40,217 bases of DNA, taken from a virus. Position 1 is the stretch's first letter. Each line of letters starts with the position of its first letter. The translations under genes and the position numbers were made by a program. The notes under the pieces were generated by a model. That model was not told where the DNA came from and did no database searches. It saw nothing but the letters and a program-made list of their open reading frames with translations. The DNA lies in the IMG/VR virus record IMGVR_UViG_3300042691_020169, positions 1-40,217 of that record. One strand, 5' to 3'. Below are positions 17,376 through 36,836 of the stretch, piece after piece.

Positions 17376-17403
17376 ACTGTACCGCATTCCCAGTAGGGTG
17401 CAA
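17376..17403 (-). promoter_or_regulatory. Leftward early-promoter-like element (PL2)
   Basis: On the minus strand this reads TTGCAC, 16 bases, TACAGT. Compared with the element at 30115-30142 over 31 bases, 22 positions are identical, including the central CTGGGAA and the downstream AGTGGCATG. It faces the small-gene block beginning at 17221, leaving a leader of about 150 bases. The -10-like box matches TATAAT at 4 of 6 positions. It is proposed as a phage early promoter on the basis of repetition and position. Confidence 0.6.
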
Positions 17404-17404
17404 C

Positions 17405-17674
17405 CTATCCTTGATTCACGTAGCTGGGGCCAGCCTCTTCTGCGTCGTCACGCTCCTGTATCTCGATGTACTTGTCGAGAAAGTGCCGCGCCTTCTTCAA
17501 GTCGTCGAGACGCTTCTTAGGAGTGTCGTGTTTGTACTTCCAGCGGAACACGTACTTGGTGATTTGTCCCTGGAAATAGTCGAGATTGAACAAGTCGACC
17601 ACGTCCCAGTGTTGCACAGTGTGGTCAGTCTTGTAGTGGTCGCCCGCTACCTGATGATCATTCGCTTTGGGCAT
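17405..17674 (-). CDS. DUF3310 family protein (T7 gp1.7-related type)
   Basis: The 89-residue protein has the family pattern HYKT...VQHWDVVDLFNLDYFQGQITKYVFRWKYK followed by KKRLDDLKKARHFLDKYIE. DUF3310 includes the T7 gp1.7 nucleotide-kinase-like proteins and many uncharacterised phage relatives. No P-loop is present. It overlaps the end of the thymidylate-synthase homologue by 17 bases, so a link to nucleotide metabolism is plausible. The exact activity cannot be read from sequence. Confidence 0.8.
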   Translation of the reverse strand: MPKANDHQVAGDHYKTDHTVQHWDVVDLFNLDYFQGQITKYVFRWKYKHDTPKKRLDDLKKARHFLDKYIEIQERDDAEEAGPSYVNQG

Positions 17675-18665: not shown

Positions 18666-18865
18666 TCTTTCTGCTCCTTTATGAGGAGGCTATGTTCACG
18701 GGCGTAGCCTTCCATTTGTTGTCGGGTGAGAAACTGAACCATGAACCACCCGTCCTGCATGTCACTGTACGGCACCACCGTGCAGTTGATCGCACACCCG
18801 TGGACTTCCTCGCCCACAATCAGGTCACCCTGGATGGTATGTATTCCTGACCCTTCGATCTCCAT
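18662..18865 (-). CDS. Small hypothetical protein inside the modification cluster (67 aa)
   Basis: The protein begins MEIEGSGIHTIQGDLIVGEE. It contains a probable beta-rich half with two cysteines (GCAINC) and ends with a charged helix (QMEGYAREHSLLIKEQKE). It starts 41 bases inside the end of the upstream modification gene, and its stop overlaps the GTG of the thymidylate-synthase homologue. Tight coupling suggests a linked role, but nothing in the sequence identifies it. Confidence 0.6.
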   Translation of the reverse strand: MEIEGSGIHTIQGDLIVGEEVHGCAINCTVVPYSDMQDGWFMVQFLTRQQMEGYAREHSLLIKEQKE

Positions 18866-19634
18866 ACTTGACCCTCATGTATTTGGAAAACTCACACAGG
18901 CAGTTCTGGAAATCTTGCATGTGTATGGGGGGAATGTCTTCGTTGATGAGGGGGGCGGTGGCCTCCCATGCCATGCTGATGGCGGCTTGAAACCCCTTGG
19001 GCGTAATGGGAACGCCGTAGAGCGCTGAAAGCCCCCGCAGGCTACCGGGGCCGGGGCTGCACCACGTGTGCCAGTCTGGAGCGCTCTGGAGCGGGTGGCC
19101 GGGGGTGTTTTTGCAGTCAGCCAGCACCTGCCCAGCCAAAAAGCTCCCAAACCCGTCAACGCACGTGATTTGCTTGTAGCACTCAGCGAGGCTGCTGTAG
19201 TCAGGCTCCCCGGCCTCCATGAATGCCTGCACGACCTCCATCACGTAATCGATCTTGTCCATCTTCTTGCCGCAGGTGGAGATCGTATATGCGCTGGTGA
19301 ACACCTTGTCGCCCCGCTCACGACGGGCCTTCAAGATACCCCCGATGGTGGATAGGTCGGGGTATGTCTTCGGCACCTGCGCACTCACCACTTCGTTGAG
19401 TGTGGGGATGTAATTGAGCATGCGCCCCAGGACGATCCACCACATGGGCATCTTCGCGCAGCGCCACTCGCGCGCCATCCACACGGTAACAGCATCATCC
19501 TCGCGGTGGACGTTGCACCAGCGCACCCCCGCCATGTTCGGGTCAGCGGTCCACGGGGGCACCTGCCCCGCAGTCTTTTTCTTCATGATGCTGTACCGCT
19601 CATTGATCCAGTACGCCAGTTCTTCTTTTTTCAC
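18825..19634 (-). CDS. Thymine-hypermodification protein, aGPT-Pplase / HMUDK helical-domain family
   Basis: The 269-residue protein matches the DNA-glycosylase-like helical family linked to alpha-glutamyl/putrescinyl-thymine pyrophosphorylase and the helical part of 5-hmdU DNA kinase. The N-terminus has INERYSIMKKKTAG, then PPWTADP (26-32) and RWCNVHREDD (38-47). The middle has a helix-hairpin-helix-like VDGFGSFLAGQVLADC, followed by CSPGPGSLRGLSALYG. In known clusters these proteins act on 5-hydroxymethyl-uracil in DNA. No Walker A loop is present, so the kinase half is absent. The GTG start at 19634 follows AAAGG and overlaps the glycosyltransferase gene by 35 bases. Confidence 0.75.
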   Translation of the reverse strand: MKKEELAYWINERYSIMKKKTAGQVPPWTADPNMAGVRWCNVHREDDAVTVWMAREWRCAKMPMWWIVLGRMLNYIPTLNEVVSAQVPKTYPDLSTIGGILKARRERGDKVFTSAYTISTCGKKMDKIDYVMEVVQAFMEAGEPDYSSLAECYKQITCVDGFGSFLAGQVLADCKNTPGHPLQSAPDWHTWCSPGPGSLRGLSALYGVPITPKGFQAAISMAWEATAPLINEDIPPIHMQDFQNCLCEFSKYMRVKYGDRRVRNTYHPG

Positions 19635-20412
19635 GACTAGCCTTTCCGGCCGCTGCGGCCTTTTTCCATGCTACTCGCACATCAAGCCGTGGTTGCCCGC
19701 CCCACGCCGTTTTCGTTTGCTTGTGTACCACAGTAACATATTCAGGGTACAGCGCGGCAAGTTGACGGGCAGCGTCCCCATGCATCTCGAGCGTGCGGTA
19801 GCTGGAGCACCCGCCTTTCGCCCCACTGCCGGAACGTTGGTTGGTGACCCACTTGTTCGCCACGACACAGGTGCCCCCAACCAGCATGATTTGTAGGGCA
19901 ACGTGGAAGTCTTCCATGAGTTCCATGGGGGCAAACGTGATTTTCCACGCGTTGAGATAGTCGCGCCGGTAGCCCAAGGCACGCATCATTCGTGTGTTGT
20001 ACAGGTACGGCTCCACATTGCGATTGCCGCCCTCCCTCGCCCCTATGCTGACGAATGGGCTGGTGGTCAGCAGCTCTTCAACTTCGTTGAGCATGCGCTT
20101 GATGTCTTCAGTCTCAGGGCTGCGGAATCGAGTTGGATCGTCTGTGCGGCGCACCGCAAAGTCGAGGTCATCGTCAAGCATGAGGATTGAGTCATCCGTT
20201 GCGTGCTTGAGGATGTAATCCCGTGTTGCGCTGATGGTCTGTATTTCCGGGGGCAGCACTTGCACACTCACGGACTCTAACACACTGTGCGCTAGATACT
20301 TCGATGCTTCTCGTTCTTGCACGACTAACGTCACCTTACGGCCCGTCGGGAGCAGGTTACTCAGCGTAGCCTGCTCCCCCGAGCGACCGTAGGTGGGGAT
20401 GAAGATTTGCAT
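19600..20412 (-). CDS. TAGT-like DNA-base glycosyltransferase
   Basis: The 270-residue protein has a GT-A fold pattern. It starts MQIFIPTYGRSGEQATLSNL, has strand-like KVTLVVQERE, then ISATRDYIL, and the metal-binding LMLDDDLDF (77-85). A later ELMEDFHVALQIML segment offers the acidic catalytic pair. This combination resembles the TET-associated glycosyltransferases (TAGT), which add sugars to oxidised bases in phage DNA. No TET/JBP dioxygenase is visible in the window. With a thymidylate-synthase homologue nearby, 5-hydroxymethyl-uracil is the likely acceptor. A surface-polysaccharide glycosyltransferase is the main alternative. Confidence 0.6.
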   Translation of the reverse strand: MQIFIPTYGRSGEQATLSNLLPTGRKVTLVVQEREASKYLAHSVLESVSVQVLPPEIQTISATRDYILKHATDDSILMLDDDLDFAVRRTDDPTRFRSPETEDIKRMLNEVEELLTTSPFVSIGAREGGNRNVEPYLYNTRMMRALGYRRDYLNAWKITFAPMELMEDFHVALQIMLVGGTCVVANKWVTNQRSGSGAKGGCSSYRTLEMHGDAARQLAALYPEYVTVVHKQTKTAWGGQPRLDVRVAWKKAAAAGKASREKRRTGVLDQ

Positions 20413-28306: not shown

Positions 28307-28323
28307 TTGAACCTCCGTGGGTT

Positions 28324-28356
28324 ACGGGCAGGTACAGTATGTACCAACCTGCCCGT
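28324..28356 (-). other. Intercistronic hairpin with an alternative inner stem
   Basis: A 10-bp stem (ACGGGCAGGT with ACCTGCCCGT) encloses 13 bases. GGTAC and GTACC inside the structure could form an alternative stem. A partial early-promoter match on the minus strand (TTGCAC at 28359-28364, then TACATA at 28338-28343, 15 bases apart) overlaps it. The element lies between the DUF932 gene and the next start. Confidence 0.55.
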
Positions 28357-28366
28357 CGGTGCAAGC

Positions 28367-29249: not shown

Positions 29250-29501
29250 TTACTCGGACTTGGCGGCCTGTTCAGCGGCGATGAGTGCGTCGCGCTCGGC
29301 CTCGGTGATCGGGTCGTTGACGATGGTGTGGCCCTTGAACTCATGCTTGCGGGCCAGCTCCTGGACGAGGTACGGCTTGTCGTTGATGTACGCGCTGACC
29401 ACCGGGGTGGCTCCGTTCAGCAGGGCCAACAGTCCTTCGATCTGCGCTGCCGGTGCGTTGACCATGTAGTCTTGCCAGCCGATGGAGATGATCATCTTCA
29501 T
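29250..29501 (-). CDS. Hypothetical small early protein (83 aa)
   Basis: ATG 29501 follows AAAGGACTAGTGAA. The product MKMIISIGWQDYMVNAPAAQ has a compact alpha/beta pattern (GLLALLNGATPVVSAYINDKPYL) and an acidic C-terminal helix (ITEAERDALIAAEQAAKSE). Hairpins flank the gene on both sides, so its message may be processed or stabilised individually. No known family is recognised. Confidence 0.6.
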   Translation of the reverse strand: MKMIISIGWQDYMVNAPAAQIEGLLALLNGATPVVSAYINDKPYLVQELARKHEFKGHTIVNDPITEAERDALIAAEQAAKSE

Positions 29502-29546: not shown

Positions 29547-29587
29547 CAGATGCAAGGTTACAGCGTTCGTGCGGGAACACAACCCCC

Positions 29588-29884
29588 CTACACTTTCTTT
29601 TTGCGTCGTGCTTTCGGCCGCTCGGCAAACTCAGGCAGCTTGCGGGAGAAATCCTGAGTGTACAGGTACGTCATGCCGAACTCAGTCAGGTGCAGGTACC
29701 CTTCCTCGCCCATGCCAAGCAACCCCTCTTTTCTCAACTGCCAGATCATATTCCACACAGAGTGGTACGGGAATGCTTCGTTACTCAGGGCGGTAGTGGT
29801 ACTCTTGATCGTGGCCCCTTCCGGGGCGGTGGCGACTTCTTCAAGTACCAGCACGCGATGCTCTGTAGCCTTGCTTTTGTTCAT
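29588..29884 (-). CDS. Winged-helix DNA-binding-like early protein (98 aa)
   Basis: ATG 29884 follows GGAG and overlaps the previous gene's stop. The order of elements is typical of a winged helix: VLVLEEVATAPEGATIKSTT (helix and turn), EAFPYHSVWNMIWQLRKEGLL (recognition helix) and GYLHLTEFGMTYL (wing). A strongly basic tail (RPKARRKKKV) follows. It is the second gene of the leftward early operon, a good place for a transcription regulator. The target is unknown. Palindromic sites at 34165-34223 are candidates. Confidence 0.65.
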   Translation of the reverse strand: MNKSKATEHRVLVLEEVATAPEGATIKSTTTALSNEAFPYHSVWNMIWQLRKEGLLGMGEEGYLHLTEFGMTYLYTQDFSRKLPEFAERPKARRKKKV

Positions 29885-30075
29885 GCGAGCTCCACGACGT
29901 CGTCGGTAATCCACGGGGTGGCGTCGGACGGGTACATTTCCAGATAAGTCATGTCTCGCTCGTCTTCGGCCAGCCATTTCATCAACAAGTCCAGCGCCCC
30001 CATGTGTGTCGGAGCAGTGATGATGAGGAAGGCGTAACCTTCGTCAAACTCCACGTAACACTTGAACTTCATCAT
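29881..30075 (-). CDS. Small early protein, paralogue of the protein at 32911-33129 (64 aa)
   Basis: The sequence MMKFKCYVEFDEGYAFLI aligns with MQFECIVEFDVGYQAYIV of the gene at 32911. Both have a following A-T--GA pattern and a later YLE/YLK...P.D stretch. It is the first gene of the leftward operon, starting at ATG 30075 (or 30072) after GAGGTGACAA. Its leader is also shared with the paralogue. The protein is probably a small ferredoxin-like alpha/beta fold. Function unknown. Confidence 0.65.
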   Translation of the reverse strand: MMKFKCYVEFDEGYAFLIITAPTHMGALDLLMKWLAEDERDMTYLEMYPSDATPWITDDVVELA

Positions 30076-30085
30076 TTGTCACCTC

Positions 30086-30107
30086 ACTAGTACGTGGCAC
30101 ATGCCAC
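30086..30107 (-). promoter_or_regulatory. Leader palindrome plus GTACTAGT block
   Basis: On the minus strand this reads GTGGCATGTGCCAC followed directly by GTACTAGT, and the ribosome site GAGG follows. The same two pieces, one base further apart, precede the paralogous gene at 32911 on the other strand. The arms GTGGCA/TGCCAC flank a 2-base centre, so a protein operator is more likely than an RNA stem-loop. Confidence 0.6.
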
Positions 30108-30114
30108 TGGAGGT

Positions 30115-30142
30115 ACTGTACGCCGTTCCCAGCTGAATGCAA
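30115..30142 (-). promoter_or_regulatory. Leftward early-promoter-like element (PL1)
   Basis: The minus strand reads TTGCAT, 16 bases containing CTGGGAA, then TACAGT. A transcript would start near 30108, exactly at the palindrome that leads the first leftward gene. It matches the element at 17376-17403 and, less closely, three rightward elements at 32549, 32843 and 33127. All five have a 16-base spacer. Confidence 0.6.
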
Positions 30143-30159
30143 ACCGTAAAGCTTGCCGG

Positions 30160-30188
30160 TTGTCTATACGGGTGGGCAGGCATACAAT
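30160..30188 (+). promoter_or_regulatory. Sigma70-like rightward promoter
   Basis: TTGTCT (30160-30165), a 17-base spacer and TACAAT (30183-30188) give a near-consensus host promoter facing the primase-helicase gene. A hairpin begins only seven bases after the -10 box, inside the initial transcript, which suggests early attenuation or a protected 5' end. Confidence 0.65.
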
Positions 30189-30194
30189 ATGTGC

Positions 30195-30230
30195 AAAGGC
30201 CCCGGGACGTTCGCGCGTCGCGGGGCCTTT
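30195..30230 (+). terminator. Strong hairpin between the rightward promoter and the primase-helicase gene
   Basis: A perfect 10-bp stem (AAAGGCCCCG at 30195-30204, CGGGGCCTTT at 30221-30230) is extended inside by GACG/CGTC around a short loop. The stem starts in A and ends in TTTAT, as in a rho-independent terminator. It could separate the divergent operons or attenuate the primase transcript. A second inverted repeat, TCGACACT/AGTGTCGA, follows at 30237-30258. Confidence 0.65.
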
Positions 30231-30328
30231 ATAGGATCGACACTTATGGGAGTGTCGAGTAAATCACTAGGAAATCAGATTATGGCTAGTATAGCATGCA
30301 CGCGCGCGTCCGTGCAAGGGGTTGGTCT

Positions 30329-32395
30329 ATGCTGACATTCATTCAGATAGAGACACAGCTCGGACCCGCAGCAGAAGATAGGCACGTTTCAGGTTTTGAG
30401 CTCGCCATCGAGTATCTCGAAAAGCGAGGCATCCCACCCGAACTCATGATCGAGCTGGGCATCAGAATTTGCCCCGCCAATGAACTCCTCGAGAGCGCGC
30501 TGCGCCGCAAGGTGTATGACGAGAGATTGGCGGTGGTGTTTCCCCACCTTGATATACAGGGGAACTATTACGACTGGTGGAGTTGTCGCCTAGTAGGCAA
30601 CGGAGTCCGCGCAGGGTGGCAGGGGGCCGTAGTGGACAGGCGGGGCAAGATGTTCTGCCCACCGGGCGAGCCGACAGTAGCCTACCTGCCCCCTACGCTA
30701 GACTGGACTAAGCTGGAGCGCGGGGACAGAGTATACATCCACGAGTCGGCACTCAAAGCAGCGAATGGCGCACGCCTCGGGCGCTGGTCAGTTGGCCTGA
30801 ATGGGGTGCGCGGGTGGTCGTCCCGCAAGCATGGGCACGCACTGATTAGCGGCCTGAAAGACATACCGTGGAAAACGATGGAGTTGCAGCCTGTCATCGT
30901 TTTCGACAGTAATACGGAGGATAACCCCGATGTTCTCGATGCGCGGGTGCGCCTTGCTGCGAAATTGTTTGAGCTCTACGGTCGCCGGGCGGTGGCTCTG
31001 GAGTTGCCCCGTGCTGAAGATGGTACGCATCAGGGCTTTGACGACTATGCAGTGGCAGCGGGAGACACACAGGCACTAGCCTTTCTCGATGGCGATGGTG
31101 TGGAAGTAGAGCTTGGCGAGTACGAGCTCGAGTTGCGAGCGATGAACAATCGAGTGGTACTGGTCGAAAATCTGAGTCGTATTGTGGAGATTGACTCGGG
31201 CACGATGATGAAACGTGGCGACTTTACCGACGTCAACTACGCACACATTACCGTCGAGATAGGTGACGAGGGCAAGCGCGCCAATTTCCCCCGCCTGTGG
31301 CTGACCGACGAGCGTCGGCGCACGGTACGTGAGCTCAAGTATGCCCCCGGCGAGGACAAGGTGACCCTCGATTTCCTCAACTTGTGGAAGGGCATGGGCG
31401 TGGAGCCTGAGCGGGGCGACGTGGGGCCGTGGCTGCGTCTGCTCGAGCATAACGTCCCTGACCCGTCGCTGCGGCGATGGATGATACAGTGGTTCGCATA
31501 TCCCCTGCAGAACCTCGGATGCAAGATGACGTCGTTCATCCACCTGTATGGTCCCCCCGGCACGGGCAAGAACGCCCTGCTGGTGCCCCTGCTGGACATT
31601 TATGGCGACAATGCCGCCACCCTGAGCAAGGAGAGGATAGCGTCTGATTTCAACGAGGTCTACTCTCTCCGTCAGTTCGTCAATATCGACGAGTTGCATG
31701 GTGGCAACGAGGCCGGTGCCGTCGCCATCACCAACAAAATCAAGATGCTCGTCACGTCACCCAAGCTCACAGTCAATGGCAAGGGCAAGCCGGAGTATGT
31801 GGTGGACAATCACATCAATCTGGTAACGACGTCGAACTACTCGGACAGCATCAAGCTCGACGAGGGGGACAGGCGCGCATGTGTGGTGCAGTTCGGTAGC
31901 CGCGACACCAAGATTACTGACCGTTCTGAGTGGGATGCCTACTACGAATGGTCTGAGACTGATGGTGGGGAGGCCCTTTACGACTACCTGCTGGGGGTGG
32001 ATTTGACTGGCTTCAACCCCAATGGGGACGCATACGTCACTCAGTGGAAAGAGATGGTCACTGACGCCACACGGGGCGCGATGGAGAAGTTTGTGCGCGA
32101 CCTGTGGGACGACCCCGACAGCGTGCTGCCTGTGTGGATGCAGGGGGCCGCAATCCTCACCCCGGATCAACTGGCCGTGGCCTACATGCCGGAAGAGACA
32201 TTCAAGATTACCCCCGGCCTGAAGAATGCTCTCGGTCAACGCATGCAAGACCTCGGCTTCGAGCGCATGGAGTTCAAGGCTGACGGGACGAAGAAGCGTG
32301 CGTGGATAATCGTTGACCGAAAGGGTGACTGGCCCACGGCACGCCTGCGTGAGGAATACGCGAAGGCGATTAACATGACGAAAGGAAAGTTCTAG
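30329..32395 (+). CDS. Primase-helicase (DUF3854-like N-terminus, D5/DUF5906-type SF3 helicase C-terminus)
   Basis: The protein has 688 residues from ATG 30329, with AAGGGG upstream. The N-terminal third has a TOPRIM-like layout: VYDERLAVVFPHLDIQGNYYDWWSCR, VYIHESALKAANGARLG, VIVFDSN. The helicase part has Walker A GPPGTGKN (about 408-415), Walker B VNIDELHGG (about 450-458) and the sensor VTTSNY (about 498-503). Such fusions prime and unwind DNA at the fork in phages lacking a DnaB-type helicase. It opens the rightward early block. The polymerase lies in the divergent operon. Confidence 0.85.
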   Translation: MLTFIQIETQLGPAAEDRHVSGFELAIEYLEKRGIPPELMIELGIRICPANELLESALRRKVYDERLAVVFPHLDIQGNYYDWWSCRLVGNGVRAGWQGAVVDRRGKMFCPPGEPTVAYLPPTLDWTKLERGDRVYIHESALKAANGARLGRWSVGLNGVRGWSSRKHGHALISGLKDIPWKTMELQPVIVFDSNTEDNPDVLDARVRLAAKLFELYGRRAVALELPRAEDGTHQGFDDYAVAAGDTQALAFLDGDGVEVELGEYELELRAMNNRVVLVENLSRIVEIDSGTMMKRGDFTDVNYAHITVEIGDEGKRANFPRLWLTDERRRTVRELKYAPGEDKVTLDFLNLWKGMGVEPERGDVGPWLRLLEHNVPDPSLRRWMIQWFAYPLQNLGCKMTSFIHLYGPPGTGKNALLVPLLDIYGDNAATLSKERIASDFNEVYSLRQFVNIDELHGGNEAGAVAITNKIKMLVTSPKLTVNGKGKPEYVVDNHINLVTTSNYSDSIKLDEGDRRACVVQFGSRDTKITDRSEWDAYYEWSETDGGEALYDYLLGVDLTGFNPNGDAYVTQWKEMVTDATRGAMEKFVRDLWDDPDSVLPVWMQGAAILTPDQLAVAYMPEETFKITPGLKNALGQRMQDLGFERMEFKADGTKKRAWIIVDRKGDWPTARLREEYAKAINMTKGKF

Positions 32396-32414
32396 TTGTC
32401 GTTTCGATGTCTAT

Positions 32415-32488
32415 AGCTCCAAATTCGCAGGCGACTGTCGATGGCGAACATGAGTGTGAGCTCGACTGGGGGAGCGTGAGCTCGACTG
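32415..32488 (+). repeat. Outlying copies of the origin-region repeat and a 13-bp direct repeat
   Basis: AGCTCCAAATTCG at 32415-32427 matches the motif clustered at 33816-34044. GTGAGCTCGACTG occurs twice, at 32456-32468 and 32476-32488. They lie in the 219-base gap after the primase-helicase gene, where I see no convincing gene. The resemblance suggests the same binding factor or a shared repeat origin. Confidence 0.5.
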
Positions 32489-32548
32489 AAGCGAGAATGC
32501 CCCGAGGCAAGGGGGCGCGACTCATCGATGTCGGAGTTACATTCGTGC

Positions 32549-32596
32549 TAGCATTCCCTAGGGACTGTGGCACCATATGTGTGTGCCATGTGGCAC
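32549..32596 (+). promoter_or_regulatory. Rightward early-promoter-like element with leader palindrome (copy A)
   Basis: TAGCAT (32549-32554), 16 bases containing CCCTAGGGA and TGTGG, then CACCAT (32571-32576). The palindrome GTGCCATGTGGCAC follows at 32583-32596, just before the ribosome site TAAGGAG of the gene at 32615. It has the same architecture as the copies at 32843 and 33127. The -35/-10 boxes are poor sigma70 matches, so an activator or altered polymerase may be needed. Confidence 0.5.
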
Positions 32597-32614
32597 GCAC
32601 GTAAGGAGTGTCTG

Positions 32615-32845
32615 ATGGAATATAAGGGGCTGCAATTCGACACCAGCAAGTTCGAGCAGGAACATGCTGTAATCCGACAGGTAATCGACGCACTCGAAGA
32701 GTTGCTGGGGGCTGTTCCGACACAGCAACAGGTGCATAAAATCGGACTGGCAATGCTGCCCATGCCCACGTCCGACGACCAGCCGGCTTCCGAGCAGGGC
32801 ATGGCGCTGTTCGACGCGGCGTACAACATGGCTAGCCAAGGCTAG
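32615..32845 (+). CDS. Small hypothetical early protein (76 aa)
   Basis: ATG 32615 follows TAAGGAGTGTCTG. The product MEYKGLQFDTSKFEQEHAVI is mostly helical (QVIDALEELLGAVPTQQQVH) with a Met-rich middle (GLAMLPMPTSDD) and ends QGMALFDAAYNMASQG. It has its own promoter-like element and is followed at once by the next one. The three small genes in this region therefore look like separately controlled units. Function unknown. Confidence 0.6.
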   Translation: MEYKGLQFDTSKFEQEHAVIRQVIDALEELLGAVPTQQQVHKIGLAMLPMPTSDDQPASEQGMALFDAAYNMASQG

Positions 32846-32899
32846 CATTCCTGGGGGAACGTGGCACACTGCCTGTGTGGCATGTGCCACGGTACTAGT
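32843..32899 (+). promoter_or_regulatory. Rightward early-promoter-like element with leader palindrome (copy B)
   Basis: TAGCAT (32843-32848), 16 bases with GGGGAACGTGG, then CACACT (32865-32870). GTGGCATGTGCCAC follows at 32877-32890 and GTACTAGT at 32892-32899. The palindrome and GTACTAGT are identical to those preceding the paralogous gene at 30075 on the opposite strand. Confidence 0.55.
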
Positions 32900-32910
32900 C
32901 GGAGGGTCTG

Positions 32911-33129
32911 ATGCAATTCGAGTGCATTGTGGAGTTCGACGTGGGTTACCAAGCCTACATTGTCGAGGCCGAAACGGCGCGCGGGGCCATTGCAATGGTG
33001 AATGCAGTGCAGCCGGAACAGTACGTGTACCTGAAAATCGAGCCGTTCGATGGTACTTCGGACTTTAACAGTCCCGACGAGGAATACATACTGCTGGGCC
33101 TTACGGCCGAACAGGTGCAGTGGGGGTAG
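32911..33129 (+). CDS. Small early protein, paralogue of the protein at 29881-30075 (72 aa)
   Basis: ATG 32911 follows CGGAGGGTCTG. MQFECIVEFDVGYQAYIVEA aligns with the 64-residue protein encoded at 29881-30075, including the FEC/FKC, VEFD.GY and GA residues. A specific C-terminal extension (SPDEEYILLGLTAEQVQWG) is present only here. Gene and leader were probably duplicated together and ended up in opposite orientations. Function unknown. Confidence 0.65.
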   Translation: MQFECIVEFDVGYQAYIVEAETARGAIAMVNAVQPEQYVYLKIEPFDGTSDFNSPDEEYILLGLTAEQVQWG

Positions 33130-33178
33130 CATTCCTTAGGGAATGTGGCAGCATAGGGGCGTGGCACTACGCCACGCC
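33127..33178 (+). promoter_or_regulatory. Rightward early-promoter-like element with leader hairpin (copy C)
   Basis: TAGCAT (33127-33132), 16 bases with TTAGGGAATGTGG, then CAGCAT (33149-33154). A 9-bp stem, GGGCGTGGC with GCCACGCCC and a 5-base loop, follows at about 33157-33179. Here the leader structure can form in RNA, unlike the 2-base-centre palindromes of copies A and B. It precedes the gene at 33205. Confidence 0.5.
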
Positions 33179-33204: not shown

Positions 33205-33540
33205 ATGGCAATGTTTAAGTCGACAAAGGCGGCACCAGTCGTGGGGGGCCTTATTCGTTCCGGCATTGGCACGAAAATTCACTTGGTCATCGAAGTGCTG
33301 CCCTATCACGACCATTGGGTTGTGGCCTGTCAGCCCGTGGGGCGCATGGTGCGTGGTGAATGGCGCGCAACGCAGCCCAGTCGTCTGAATGGCAATGGTG
33401 GCTACATAAACGGCTACGAATTCAAGGAAGTGTACACCAGCGGCTACAACGGATTCCATGCCGTAACCGCAGGGGCGGACTGTCCTGAAGAATGCTTGGC
33501 TGCGGTGGCGCAGCTTACGGAATGGTGCATTCGCAAGTAG
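33205..33540 (+). CDS. Hypothetical early protein (111 aa)
   Basis: ATG 33205 follows TGGAGTGCTCAGAA. The product has a basic start (MAMFKSTKAAPVVGGLI), a beta-rich centre (IHLVIEVLPYHDHWVVACQPVG, GGYINGYEFKEVYTSGYNGF) and a short C-terminal helix with three cysteines nearby (ADCPEECLAAV and WCIRK). It is the last gene before the structured non-coding region. A hairpin begins ten bases after the stop. Function unknown. Confidence 0.6.
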   Translation: MAMFKSTKAAPVVGGLIRSGIGTKIHLVIEVLPYHDHWVVACQPVGRMVRGEWRATQPSRLNGNGGYINGYEFKEVYTSGYNGFHAVTAGADCPEECLAAVAQLTEWCIRK

Positions 33541-33763: not shown

Positions 33764-33815
33764 GCCCCCTACAGGCGCGCAAGGTAGGCATTCTGAGCGT
33801 CAATTTGACTCTTCG

Positions 33816-34044
33816 AGCTCCGTATTCGATGCTCAGAGCTCCAAATCGGAGCTCGAACGCGAGTTCGAACCGCAAAGTTCCAAAGTCGCGCGTCAATTCG
33901 ACCCCTGAAGCTCCGAAGTCGACGGTGAGTTCGATTCGGGAAGCTCCGAAGTCGTGCTCGACCTCGAGATGGTTGGTTCTTCGGATCTGAGGTCGAGCTC
34001 GACGACATCGAGTTCGACCTCGATTCGTCGATGCTCCAAATTCG
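33816..34044 (+). repeat. Cluster of six AGCTCCRAAKTCG-like repeats
   Basis: Copies read AGCTCCGTATTCG (33816), AGCTCCAAATCG (33837), AGTTCCAAAGTCG (33876), AGCTCCGAAGTCG (33909 and again at 33942) and TGCTCCAAATTCG (34032). Further TCGAGCTCGA/GAGTTCGA pieces lie between them. Spacing is irregular. One more copy lies at 32415. They may be binding sites for an initiator or regulator. Confidence 0.55.
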
Positions 34045-34121
34045 GACAGTCGAGTCGCGTGCGCCGCGCGCTTGGTTGGTAAGCGCCCACTAACGTAAGT
34101 TAGCGCACACTAACCCTGTGC

Positions 34122-34279: not shown

Positions 34280-34310
34280 TTGCCAAGCTGGCACGCTACC
34301 TGCTTATAGT
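34280..34310 (+). promoter_or_regulatory. Possible promoter for the 116-residue protein
   Basis: TTGCCA (34280-34285) and TATAGT (34305-34310) lie 19 bases apart, a long spacing for sigma70, so this is a weak call. A leader stem (GTGGCAC at 34320-34326, GTGCCAC at 34337-34343) and GTACTAGT (34356-34363) follow, as in other early leaders. The ribosome site AAAGGA precedes the start at 34380. Confidence 0.4.
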
Positions 34311-34379: not shown

Positions 34380-34730
34380 ATGCAAGCCAAACCCAAAGCA
34401 GCAGCCAAAGCAGCCAAACCCGCAGCAGCGCACCCACTTGTGCCCACCGTTGCAACCCCGGCACCCGCCACCCCGGCAGCCCCCGCACCCGTGGTGGCGC
34501 TACGTGGCGGCCCTGCTGTGCAGGCCGTTACGCTGGGGGCCAAAGCCTACCGCGTAACCGCGCCACATAACGTGGCGTGGTGGCAGGCCATTACTGCCAC
34601 ACTGCAAGCTAACGGTGGCATTGCTACGGTGCAGCAGGTAACGGCGGCGGCCGGGTGCCCGCTTACCCTACTGGGCTACCTGCTGCGGCGTGGGCACCTT
34701 GCGGCAGCCACCGTACCCGCTGCGCAGTAG
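34380..34730 (+). CDS. Basic-tailed, winged-helix-like protein next to the palindrome array (116 aa)
   Basis: The N-terminus is histone-like (AKPKAAAKAAKPAAA) and leads through an Ala/Pro linker (VATPAPATPAAPAPVVA). A small C-terminal domain carries AWWQAITATLQANGGIATVQQ then VTAAAGCPLTLLGYLLRRG. Those helices and the turn resemble a winged helix. It is a single-gene unit with its own leader structure and a very strong terminator, so it is probably abundant. It may bind the upstream palindromes or coat DNA. Both are inferences. Confidence 0.6.
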   Translation: MQAKPKAAAKAAKPAAAHPLVPTVATPAPATPAAPAPVVALRGGPAVQAVTLGAKAYRVTAPHNVAWWQAITATLQANGGIATVQQVTAAAGCPLTLLGYLLRRGHLAAATVPAAQ

Positions 34731-34829: not shown

Positions 34830-34935
34830 CGTGCCGTTACGTACTACTGGTGCGCAGCACCTGTTAAGCACTTGAATTTAGGCCGGGGGTACTGCAACCC
34901 CAACGCGGACAAAAACACCTACAGGACGCGTCGAC

Positions 34936-35047
34936 GCATTGTCGAGGATATTCAACATCCCTAGTAGGTGAGGGGCCGCATCCACGCATTGTCGAGAATA
35001 TTCAATATCCCCAGGAACGGGGCATTGTCGAGAATATTCGATATCCC
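34936..35047 (+). repeat. Three 26-bp direct repeats (late-control iterons)
   Basis: Copies at 34936-34961, 34986-35011 and 35022-35047 share GCATTGTCGAG, then (G/A)ATATTC, then (A/G)A(C/T)ATCCC. The first and third continue to CCTA(G/A)TAG. Each carries the AT-rich inverted core GAATATTC or a near match. In copies one and three, TTGTCG is followed 17 bases later by TAGTAG or TAATAG, so they may be tandem promoters. They lie 64 bases before the first late gene. Confidence 0.7.
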
Positions 35048-35110
35048 TAATAGTAAGAAGTAAGCTCCAGGGCTTGCATTCTAACCAGTTCTGTGGTAGG
35101 GTTCTGCACC

Positions 35111-35484: not shown

Positions 35485-36836
35485 TAATCCGGTCGCTGTA
35501 CCGCCCCCGAGGGTATTTCCGGGATTTTCACCTGCGGAAACACCGCTGGGCCGTGCTTGTCGCCCATCGGCGCGCGGGGAAGACGGTTTCTGTGGTCAAC
35601 GACATCATCGAGAAAGCCAGCTACAACACGAGAGAGAATCCGAGGTATGCGTATGTGGCCCCCCTGCTCAGACAAGCAAAAGACATTGCTTGGCAGTACG
35701 TCAAAGATTACGCCGCCCCCTTTTCCCCTAAAGTCAACGAGTCCGGACTGTACGTCGAGCTCAGTTCTCTCCCGAATAAACCACGAATTACTCTGTACGG
35801 AGCAGATAACCCTGACTCCTTCCGGGGCATGTACTTCGACGGTGTCGCCCTCGATGAGTTCGGGAATATGCGCGGCAGCGTCTTCCAAGAGATCCTGCTT
35901 CCTGCCCTGATCGACAGGCGGGGGTGGGCCGTGTTCATGGGCACGCCCAACGGCCCCAACCATTTCAGGGACATGTACTACGACTCCCTGAAAGACGACA
36001 ACTGGTTCGTCAACTTCCTGCCATACACCAAGACCAATATCCTGAGCGAAGAGGATATTGCGATGATGCGCAAGATGATGGACGAAGAGCAGTTCGCGCA
36101 AGAGATGGAGTGCTCCTTCGAGGCCAGCGTGCGGGGTGCCATCTACGCACGGCAAATGGAAAATGCAGAGAAAGAAGAGCGCATCGGAGACTATCCGCTT
36201 TCGACGGCGCAGCCTGTACATCTCGCCATGGACCTCGGGCATAGCGACGACACTACGATGGGGTTTTTCCAGACGCGTTTCGACGGCAATCTCATGGGGC
36301 ACGCGCACCATGACAATATGAAGCCGATTGCCCATTACATCAAGTATCTGAAAGAGTTTTGCGGCGACAACAACCTCAAACTGGGCACGGTCTGGCTTCC
36401 ACACGACGCCAAGGCGAAAACCCTGCAGACTGGGCGTGCCATCATCGACCATTTCCGGGACGCTAACATTCGCCCGAAGTTGGTCCCCCGGCTGGACGTA
36501 ATTGACGGCATCGCAGCCACACGAACAGGGTTCCCGAGCTGGTATTTTCACAGGTCAGAAACTGAGAAATTGGTGCTGGCATTGAAGAGCTATCACCGGA
36601 AATACGACGAAGAGAAGAAAATATTCACAGACGAGCCGGTGCATGACTGGTCGAGCCATTACGCGGACATGTTCCGTTACGCCAACATTGTCACGGGGCC
36701 GAAACAAGTCCCTGACGTCACAAGGCCCGCGCAGCAAGGGATTGTAAAGTCCGCTGCGCGCGTGGTAAACTACGGCTTCTCGCTGGACGATCTCTGGTCG
36801 ACAGCCCCGTCGGGATCGCGGAGAACATATGGCTGA
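35481..36836 (+). CDS. Terminase large subunit
   Basis: The protein has 451 residues from ATG 35481. Upstream extension would run through the two preceding genes. The ATPase has Walker A AHRRAGKT (about 28-35), an arginine-rich MYVAPLLRQAK-like segment (YVAPLLRQAKDIAW), Walker B VALDEFG (about 122-128) and the coupling motif MGTPNG. The nuclease part has LAMDLGHSDDTT (D near 251) and a later DWSSHYADMFRY with the second acidic set. It drives DNA packaging into the prohead. The end overlaps the portal start by 8 bases. Confidence 0.92.
   Translation: MIIRSLYRPRGYFRDFHLRKHRWAVLVAHRRAGKTVSVVNDIIEKASYNTRENPRYAYVAPLLRQAKDIAWQYVKDYAAPFSPKVNESGLYVELSSLPNKPRITLYGADNPDSFRGMYFDGVALDEFGNMRGSVFQEILLPALIDRRGWAVFMGTPNGPNHFRDMYYDSLKDDNWFVNFLPYTKTNILSEEDIAMMRKMMDEEQFAQEMECSFEASVRGAIYARQMENAEKEERIGDYPLSTAQPVHLAMDLGHSDDTTMGFFQTRFDGNLMGHAHHDNMKPIAHYIKYLKEFCGDNNLKLGTVWLPHDAKAKTLQTGRAIIDHFRDANIRPKLVPRLDVIDGIAATRTGFPSWYFHRSETEKLVLALKSYHRKYDEEKKIFTDEPVHDWSSHYADMFRYANIVTGPKQVPDVTRPAQQGIVKSAARVVNYGFSLDDLWSTAPSGSRRTYG

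Follow-up and report, generated by a model that had tools for sequence, protein, structure and literature searches.

Predicted early promoters with a 16-bp spacer and a start-site hairpin in a metagenomic tailed-phage family

The virus DNA described here comprises positions 1-40,217 of IMG/VR record IMGVR_UViG_3300042691_020169, and this whole stretch of 40,217 bp is referred to as the window. Its ends share an 18-bp overlap, so that it is probably a complete, circularly closed phage genome. Promoter-like elements are found in the gaps flanking a primase/helicase gene (30296-32395, plus strand), with one more at 17.4 kb. A leftward block encodes a DUF932 protein, DNA polymerase A, a helicase, and DNA modification functions, while the genes for a portal protein and the large terminase (ending at 36836) are on the plus strand. 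An initial annotation had described five of the elements as sharing non-consensus boxes and a 16-base spacer. We found that most of them are followed by a short hairpin encoded at the predicted transcript start, a feature absent from that account.

The boxes, coordinates, and 16-base spacers given for the five elements were all exact, and GGGA(A/C) was present in each spacer. On the minus strand, TTGCAT-N16-TACAGT (30115..30142) carries GGGAAC in its spacer, which places GA at -20/-19, and stands ahead of the leftward early block. The plus-strand promoters are TAGCAT-N16-CACCAT at 32549..32576 (spacer GGGACT), TAGCAT-N16-CACACT at 32843..32870 (GGGAAC), and TAGCAT-N16-CAGCAT at 33127..33154 (GGGAAT). 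The weakest of the five, a probable promoter TTGCAC-N16-TACAGT (GGGAAT) at 17376..17403 on the minus strand, lies in the gap after an open reading frame (ORF) at 17405-17674. By hand count, the two leftward copies are identical at 22 of 31 positions, as reported. A matrix was built from the five window elements and two copies in a relative, L004 (see below). In a genome-wide search, the five elements were the best matches to their own motif, with scores of 33 to 38 compared with 17.6 for the next site in the window; all were intergenic or at gene starts. When single elements were left out, each ranked right after the other four, and 4/5 beat the best of 30 simulated genomes; the exception, 17403(-), scored 17.9, within the simulated range (mean, 13.3; maximum, 20.6). 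Pairwise identity across the five amounted to 27% in the upstream 30 bp, 79% in the -35 box, 63% in both the spacer and the -10 box, and 35% over the initial 30 transcribed bases. The spacer is thus no less conserved than the -10 box.

Folding of the predicted transcripts revealed a hairpin beginning at predicted +1 or +2 in four elements (30142, 32549, 32843, and 33127). It consists of a 5-bp GTGGC-type stem with a loop of 4 to 5 nucleotides (nt), followed by a Shine-Dalgarno sequence and ATG. The minus-strand hairpin, GTGGC-ATGT-GCCAC (30094..30107), starts at predicted +2 and has a folding energy of -8.7 kcal/mol. Those on the plus strand start at predicted +1 and read GTGCC-ATGT-GGCAC (32583..32596), GTGGC-ATGT-GCCAC (32877..32890), and GTGGC-ACTAC-GCCAC (33161..33175). 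Compared to the hairpins at 30094 and 32877, the one at 32583 has one pair swapped from G-C to C-G and an identical loop. Stems start within about 2 nt of the 5' end, a distance that refers to the predicted +1 only. Rfam covariance models and a tRNA scan yielded no match in the window, and when the window alone was scanned for strict-consensus sigma70 promoters with a hairpin, they were no more frequent than in shuffles, the boxes being non-consensus.

These hairpins precede small genes. The ORF behind 30142(-) (29881..30075, minus strand, 63-64 amino acids [aa]) and the one behind 32843(+) (32911..33129, plus strand, 72 aa) are paralogues of each other (BLASTP 2.7e-9) and of the ORF behind the first L004 copy (4135, plus strand). 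In addition, a 76-aa ORF without family match (32615..32845, plus strand) follows the 32549 promoter and a 111-aa ORF (33205..33540, plus strand) the 33127 promoter. Part of the promoter likeness is therefore due to joint duplication of promoter and gene: judged from the sequences, at least two of the five promoters belong to duplicated promoter-gene cassettes, which had been overlooked. The paralogy of ORFs 30075(-), 32911(+), and L004 4135(+) would even be expected if the likeness reflected nothing but common descent, i.e., recently duplicated cassettes in which spacer and hairpin are unselected. However, neither ORF 32615 nor ORF 33205 is significantly similar to the paralogous ORFs, so that the same promoter also stands before other genes, and distant phages with unrelated promoter sequences have nevertheless kept the 16-bp spacing, the GA, and the +1 hairpin. 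We give very little credence to common descent as the sole explanation.

In a search of IMG/VR, the exact promoter pattern was found in L004 only, a 9.7-kb contig whose primase is 70% identical to that of the window. Behind this primase lie two near-identical elements, TTGTAT-TCCCCCCGGAACGTAG-TACAGT, each followed by a GTGGC-N4-GCCAC hairpin and a small ORF at the place corresponding to the window. Further relatives, some of them fragmentary contigs, were gathered by terminase and primase searches; six aligned primases showed 46-70% identity to the window's. Relatives down to ∼46-57% primase identity retained the layout with other sequences, comprising a TTG-type -35 box, a 16-bp spacer, a YANANT -10 box, and a hairpin at +1/+2, as in the leftward promoters TTGCAT-N16-TACAAT (L007), TTGTGT-N16-TATACT (L056), and TTGCGT-N16-CATAAT (L057). 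Comparison of intergenic regions among related phages, proposed in the initial annotation as a check, hence uncovered a common plan in differing sequences. Even within one genome, stem sequences varied among promoters, indicating that structure is kept and not sequence.

This variation bears on the idea that a phage repressor or activator times the early genes by binding the +1 palindromes, together with a partial spacer dyad (CATTCC-N4-GGAATG), as its DNA operators, the hairpin being incidental. Operators would account for the pairing that runs upstream of predicted +1 in three copies, for the recurrence of GTGGC half-sites in the window and L004, and for a spacer conserved among the paralogues and L004. 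In relatives, however, half-sites differ among the promoters of one genome, as do loop lengths, and the spacing between half-sites ranges from 3 to 7 nt, the register is locked to +1/+2 across phages, and no dedicated repressor was identified in the part of the proteome that was scanned. We therefore regard operators as unlikely.

To quantify recurrence, we took Shine-Dalgarno-bearing ORFs with a minimum of 40 codons and picked the best upstream sigma70-like site blind to hairpins; scoring used Escherichia coli weights. Stems of at least 5 bp were present at +1/+2 for 38 of 417 family ORFs, compared to 6.9 ± 2.5 in shuffled leaders. A stricter promoter score gave 21 of 141 (2.3 ± 1.5 in shuffles), and the profile of stem offsets peaked 6-7 nt after the -10 box. 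Twelve pooled control phages (cultured and other annotated ones) had a +1 hairpin in 8 of 75 cases (1.3 ± 1.2 in shuffles), mostly contributed by ctUtU524 and AXL3, so that this feature is not exclusive to the window's phage family. The distantly related ctUtU524 (L101) contains three similar cassettes on the minus strand (31390, 30155, and 20607) of the form TTTAC(A/G/T)-N17-TATGAT or TAAGAT, with another hairpin, CGGTC...GA(C/T)CG, at +2. When family sites were chosen by -10 box and hairpin alone, TTG-type -35 boxes were overrepresented at a distance of 16 bp (16/60 versus 48/918; p 3e-7), and none of the other spacings from 13 to 21 bp showed such an enrichment. This result supports the 16-base spacer, recovered here without selecting on the -35 box, as a real, family-wide feature.

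A second spacer feature emerged from 17 aligned members that had not been selected on the spacer: G occupied -20 in 14 and A occupied -19 in 15 of them. The first three -35 positions were T (17/17), T (13/17), and G (17/17) in this set, which was partly chosen on TTG, and positions 4-6 departed from the ACA of TTGACA. In the -10 box, A at -11 and T at -7 were invariant, yet both were part of the selection; the first base was T or C about equally, and the three plus-strand window copies read CANNNT. Of 15 sites that combine a hairpin with TTG/TAG at 16 bp, 12 had the GA, compared to 7 of 38 without a strict hairpin (p 5e-5); when one element per genome was counted, 8 of 10 genomes had it (own tally). 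These strong figures depend on TTG at 16 bp also being present; when all 544 dinucleotide positions were scanned without supervision, the p value for GA at this offset was 1e-4, which is modest after correction. The GGGA(A/C) noticed initially is the window's local form of this wider GA at -20/-19. Conservation of spacer and GA could point to a bound factor or to contact with RNA polymerase. A further-reaching idea, which we consider rather doubtful, is that GA, an obligatory 16-bp spacing, and the +1 hairpin constitute one recognition and initiation unit, in which host or phage-modified RNA polymerase would read a sequence-specific spacer element and the hairpin would also aid promoter escape or early RNA displacement.

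Two other sigma factor readings were tried and rejected. For sigma54 (TGGCAC beside the -10 box), the GG-N10-GC spacing fits 33127 only, but not 32549, 32843, or 30142 (by eye), i.e., the register is not conserved. As to extracytoplasmic function (ECF) sigma factors, proposed from GGAAC, relatives keep the GA only and not GGGAA. A matrix trained exclusively on other genomes retrieved the promoters described here as top scoring in G000, G001, G003, G006, and G007, with 30142(-) being its top match, and yielded extra promoters in G007 and G005, which have the GA and a +1/+2 hairpin.

We consider it probable that the elements are host-sigma70-type early promoters of a metagenomic tailed-phage family whose transcripts carry a stabilizing 5'-terminal hairpin, and that they spread partly by cassette duplication. 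Promoter activity and sigma type are inferred from the observed sequences, register, enrichment, and family-wide recurrence, the exact start site is a predicted one, and the label "early" is given because of gene position. The RNA polymerase of the host, carrying a primary-type sigma factor, would recognize a TTG(C/T)-type -35 box and a YANANT -10 box separated by exactly 16 bp, with GA at -20/-19. That host polymerase reads the sites had already been proposed, and their position at gene starts and the cross-genome combination of TTG, 16 bp, and YANANT support this; the accompanying argument from a missing phage polymerase carries little weight, since no T7-type RNA polymerase was detected in a search whose own control genomes gave no match either. 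The DNA at +1/+2 would encode a short stable hairpin, so that the mRNA would have a double-stranded beginning; next would come a ribosome-binding site and, in most cases, a small early gene. In bacteria, 5'-terminal stem-loops stabilize mRNA, and RNA pyrophosphohydrolase (RppH) and RNase E favor single-stranded 5' ends (PMC3997798). Because a paired 5' end is known to slow both enzymes, message stabilization is taken as the likeliest role: the hairpin would most likely shield the new 5' end from RppH and RNase E and thereby stabilize short early messages. Promoter, hairpin, and gene would have spread in part as duplicated cassettes.

Alternatively, the hairpin might act on the polymerase and, in the manner of HK022 put RNA, serve as a signal for antitermination, against pausing, or for promoter escape. 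It would be the first RNA made from the early promoters, just as HK022 putL lies just downstream of PL (PMC9378689). In contrast to put RNA, which has two stem-loops in ∼70 nt, we found single hairpins of 14-20 nt, and many elements drive just one small gene and have no long operon that would need protection. Such a signal seems highly improbable.

Several observations weigh against stabilized sigma70-type transcripts. The element at 17403(-) lacks a +1 hairpin. The -10 boxes CACCAT, CACACT, and CAGCAT are poor for E. coli sigma70. In three of six window and L004 copies (hand count), pairing extends 4-5 bp upstream of predicted +1, for which an RNA starting at +1 has no need. Paralogous cassettes are not independent observations, and no convincing promoter was cross-predicted in the more divergent G008, G010, G012, and G015. 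Moreover, RppH and RNase E are assumed to be present in the host: a search for relatives in bacterial genomes gave no primase relative, and its matches were distant terminases only (Sphingosinicella terrae and a Chthoniobacter metagenome-assembled genome).

The initial annotation had also named two weaker relatives of the five elements, neither of which was upheld. At 28364(-), the 16-bp register gives ACATAC, and there is no +1 hairpin. An inverted repeat of another kind, CGGGCAGGT...ACCTGCCCG, occurs at this site (28320-28362), in the gap that separates the DUF932 gene from the next ORF of the leftward block, and is possibly an operator or terminator. The site at 35074(+) belongs to another class, being a predicted terminase-operon promoter (TTGCAT-N17-TAGGGT; 35074..35102, plus strand). 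Its spacer measures 17 bp and its start codon lies at about +3; with ATG nearly at the predicted start, it is apparently leaderless. Equivalents, likewise apparently leaderless, were readable before the small gene preceding terL in L004, L007, L012, L013, and L014. A degenerate sixth element, TTGTGT-N16-TAACCT (29555..29582, minus strand; spacer CGAACG with GA at -20/-19), precedes the ORF at 29250-29501, and L004 has a degenerate counterpart at 1263(-) ahead of the same gene. The 17.6-scoring site, 8280(+), overlaps a late-gene start and was rejected as a promoter in that register; it forms the hairpin region of 8259(+), a weak alternative site whose score is near the simulated maximum.

Other features were noted nearby. 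A sigma54-type site, CTGGCACG-N4-CTGCT (34288-34304, plus strand), lies upstream of the gene for a small Lys/Ala-rich protein (34380-34730). L004, L007, and L056 have matching sites in the corresponding position, but L012 and L013 do not. Directly before the terminase promoter are three imperfect repeats, GCATTGTCGAG-ATATTC-ATATCCC (34930-35050), replaced in relatives by AT-rich repeats of different sequence; packaging, operator, or origin sites are possible functions. A noncoding cluster of AGCTCC(A/G)AA(G/T)TC and TCGA-rich repeats (33800-34060) resembles repeats at 3850-5040 in L004, and its repeats are possible origin-like iterons. Finally, 5-hydroxymethyl-dU DNA kinase and TET-associated glycosyltransferase families are encoded at 18825-20412 (minus strand). 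Their presence suggests that thymidine in the phage DNA may be hypermodified, and modified DNA within a promoter could favor unusual boxes.

The proposed arrangement would be a refined rather than revolutionary version of known phage gene control, in a little-known bacterial virus family. If true, a whole phage family assembles its early genes from interchangeable cassettes of promoter, capping hairpin, and small gene. The genes with which the family takes over its hosts early in infection could then be located simply in metagenomic data, and nature would supply a collection of compact promoters that bring their own message protection. Conserved sequences within promoter spacers are rare; the fixed GA would be one of them and would make the disputed sequence specificity of polymerase-spacer contacts testable. 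No description of the promoter-hairpin combination was found in open-license PubMed Central papers, among which some topics were searched narrowly.

Several known systems share parts of this design. The conserved GA at -20/-19 overlaps the position of the spacer Z-element (-24 to -18, or -17/-18), with which the beta' zipper of RNA polymerase makes contact (PMC4496709, PMC5101437); contact with, or preference for, GA is hypothetical. Like T4 early promoters (PMC2988021), the elements are multicopy, have conserved positions beyond the -35 and -10 boxes, and would be read by host polymerase without phage proteins. However, T4 early promoters match the consensus very well, whereas here the boxes are non-consensus and combined with a 16-bp spacer and a fixed spacer GA. 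In Cluster K mycobacteriophages, start-associated and extended start-associated sequences (PMC3203893) likewise recur immediately ahead of the start codons of small nonstructural genes and contain inverted repeats. Formation of mRNA hairpins by those repeats was considered unlikely, in contrast to the present stems, whose structure is kept while the sequence varies. HK022 put RNA also is a structured RNA that opens early phage transcripts, but its antitermination has been demonstrated, whereas such an activity of the present hairpins would be hypothetical. A further parallel is provided by the ompA and papA leaders, E. coli-type 5'-terminal stem-loops that stabilize mRNA (Emory, Bouvet and Belasco 1992, cited in PMC3997798). 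As in these stabilizers, the hairpin lies within 1-2 nt of the (here predicted) 5' end and ahead of the ribosome-binding site; unlike them, it is tied to a distinct phage early-promoter design and stands before many small genes, whose messages it would presumably stabilize.

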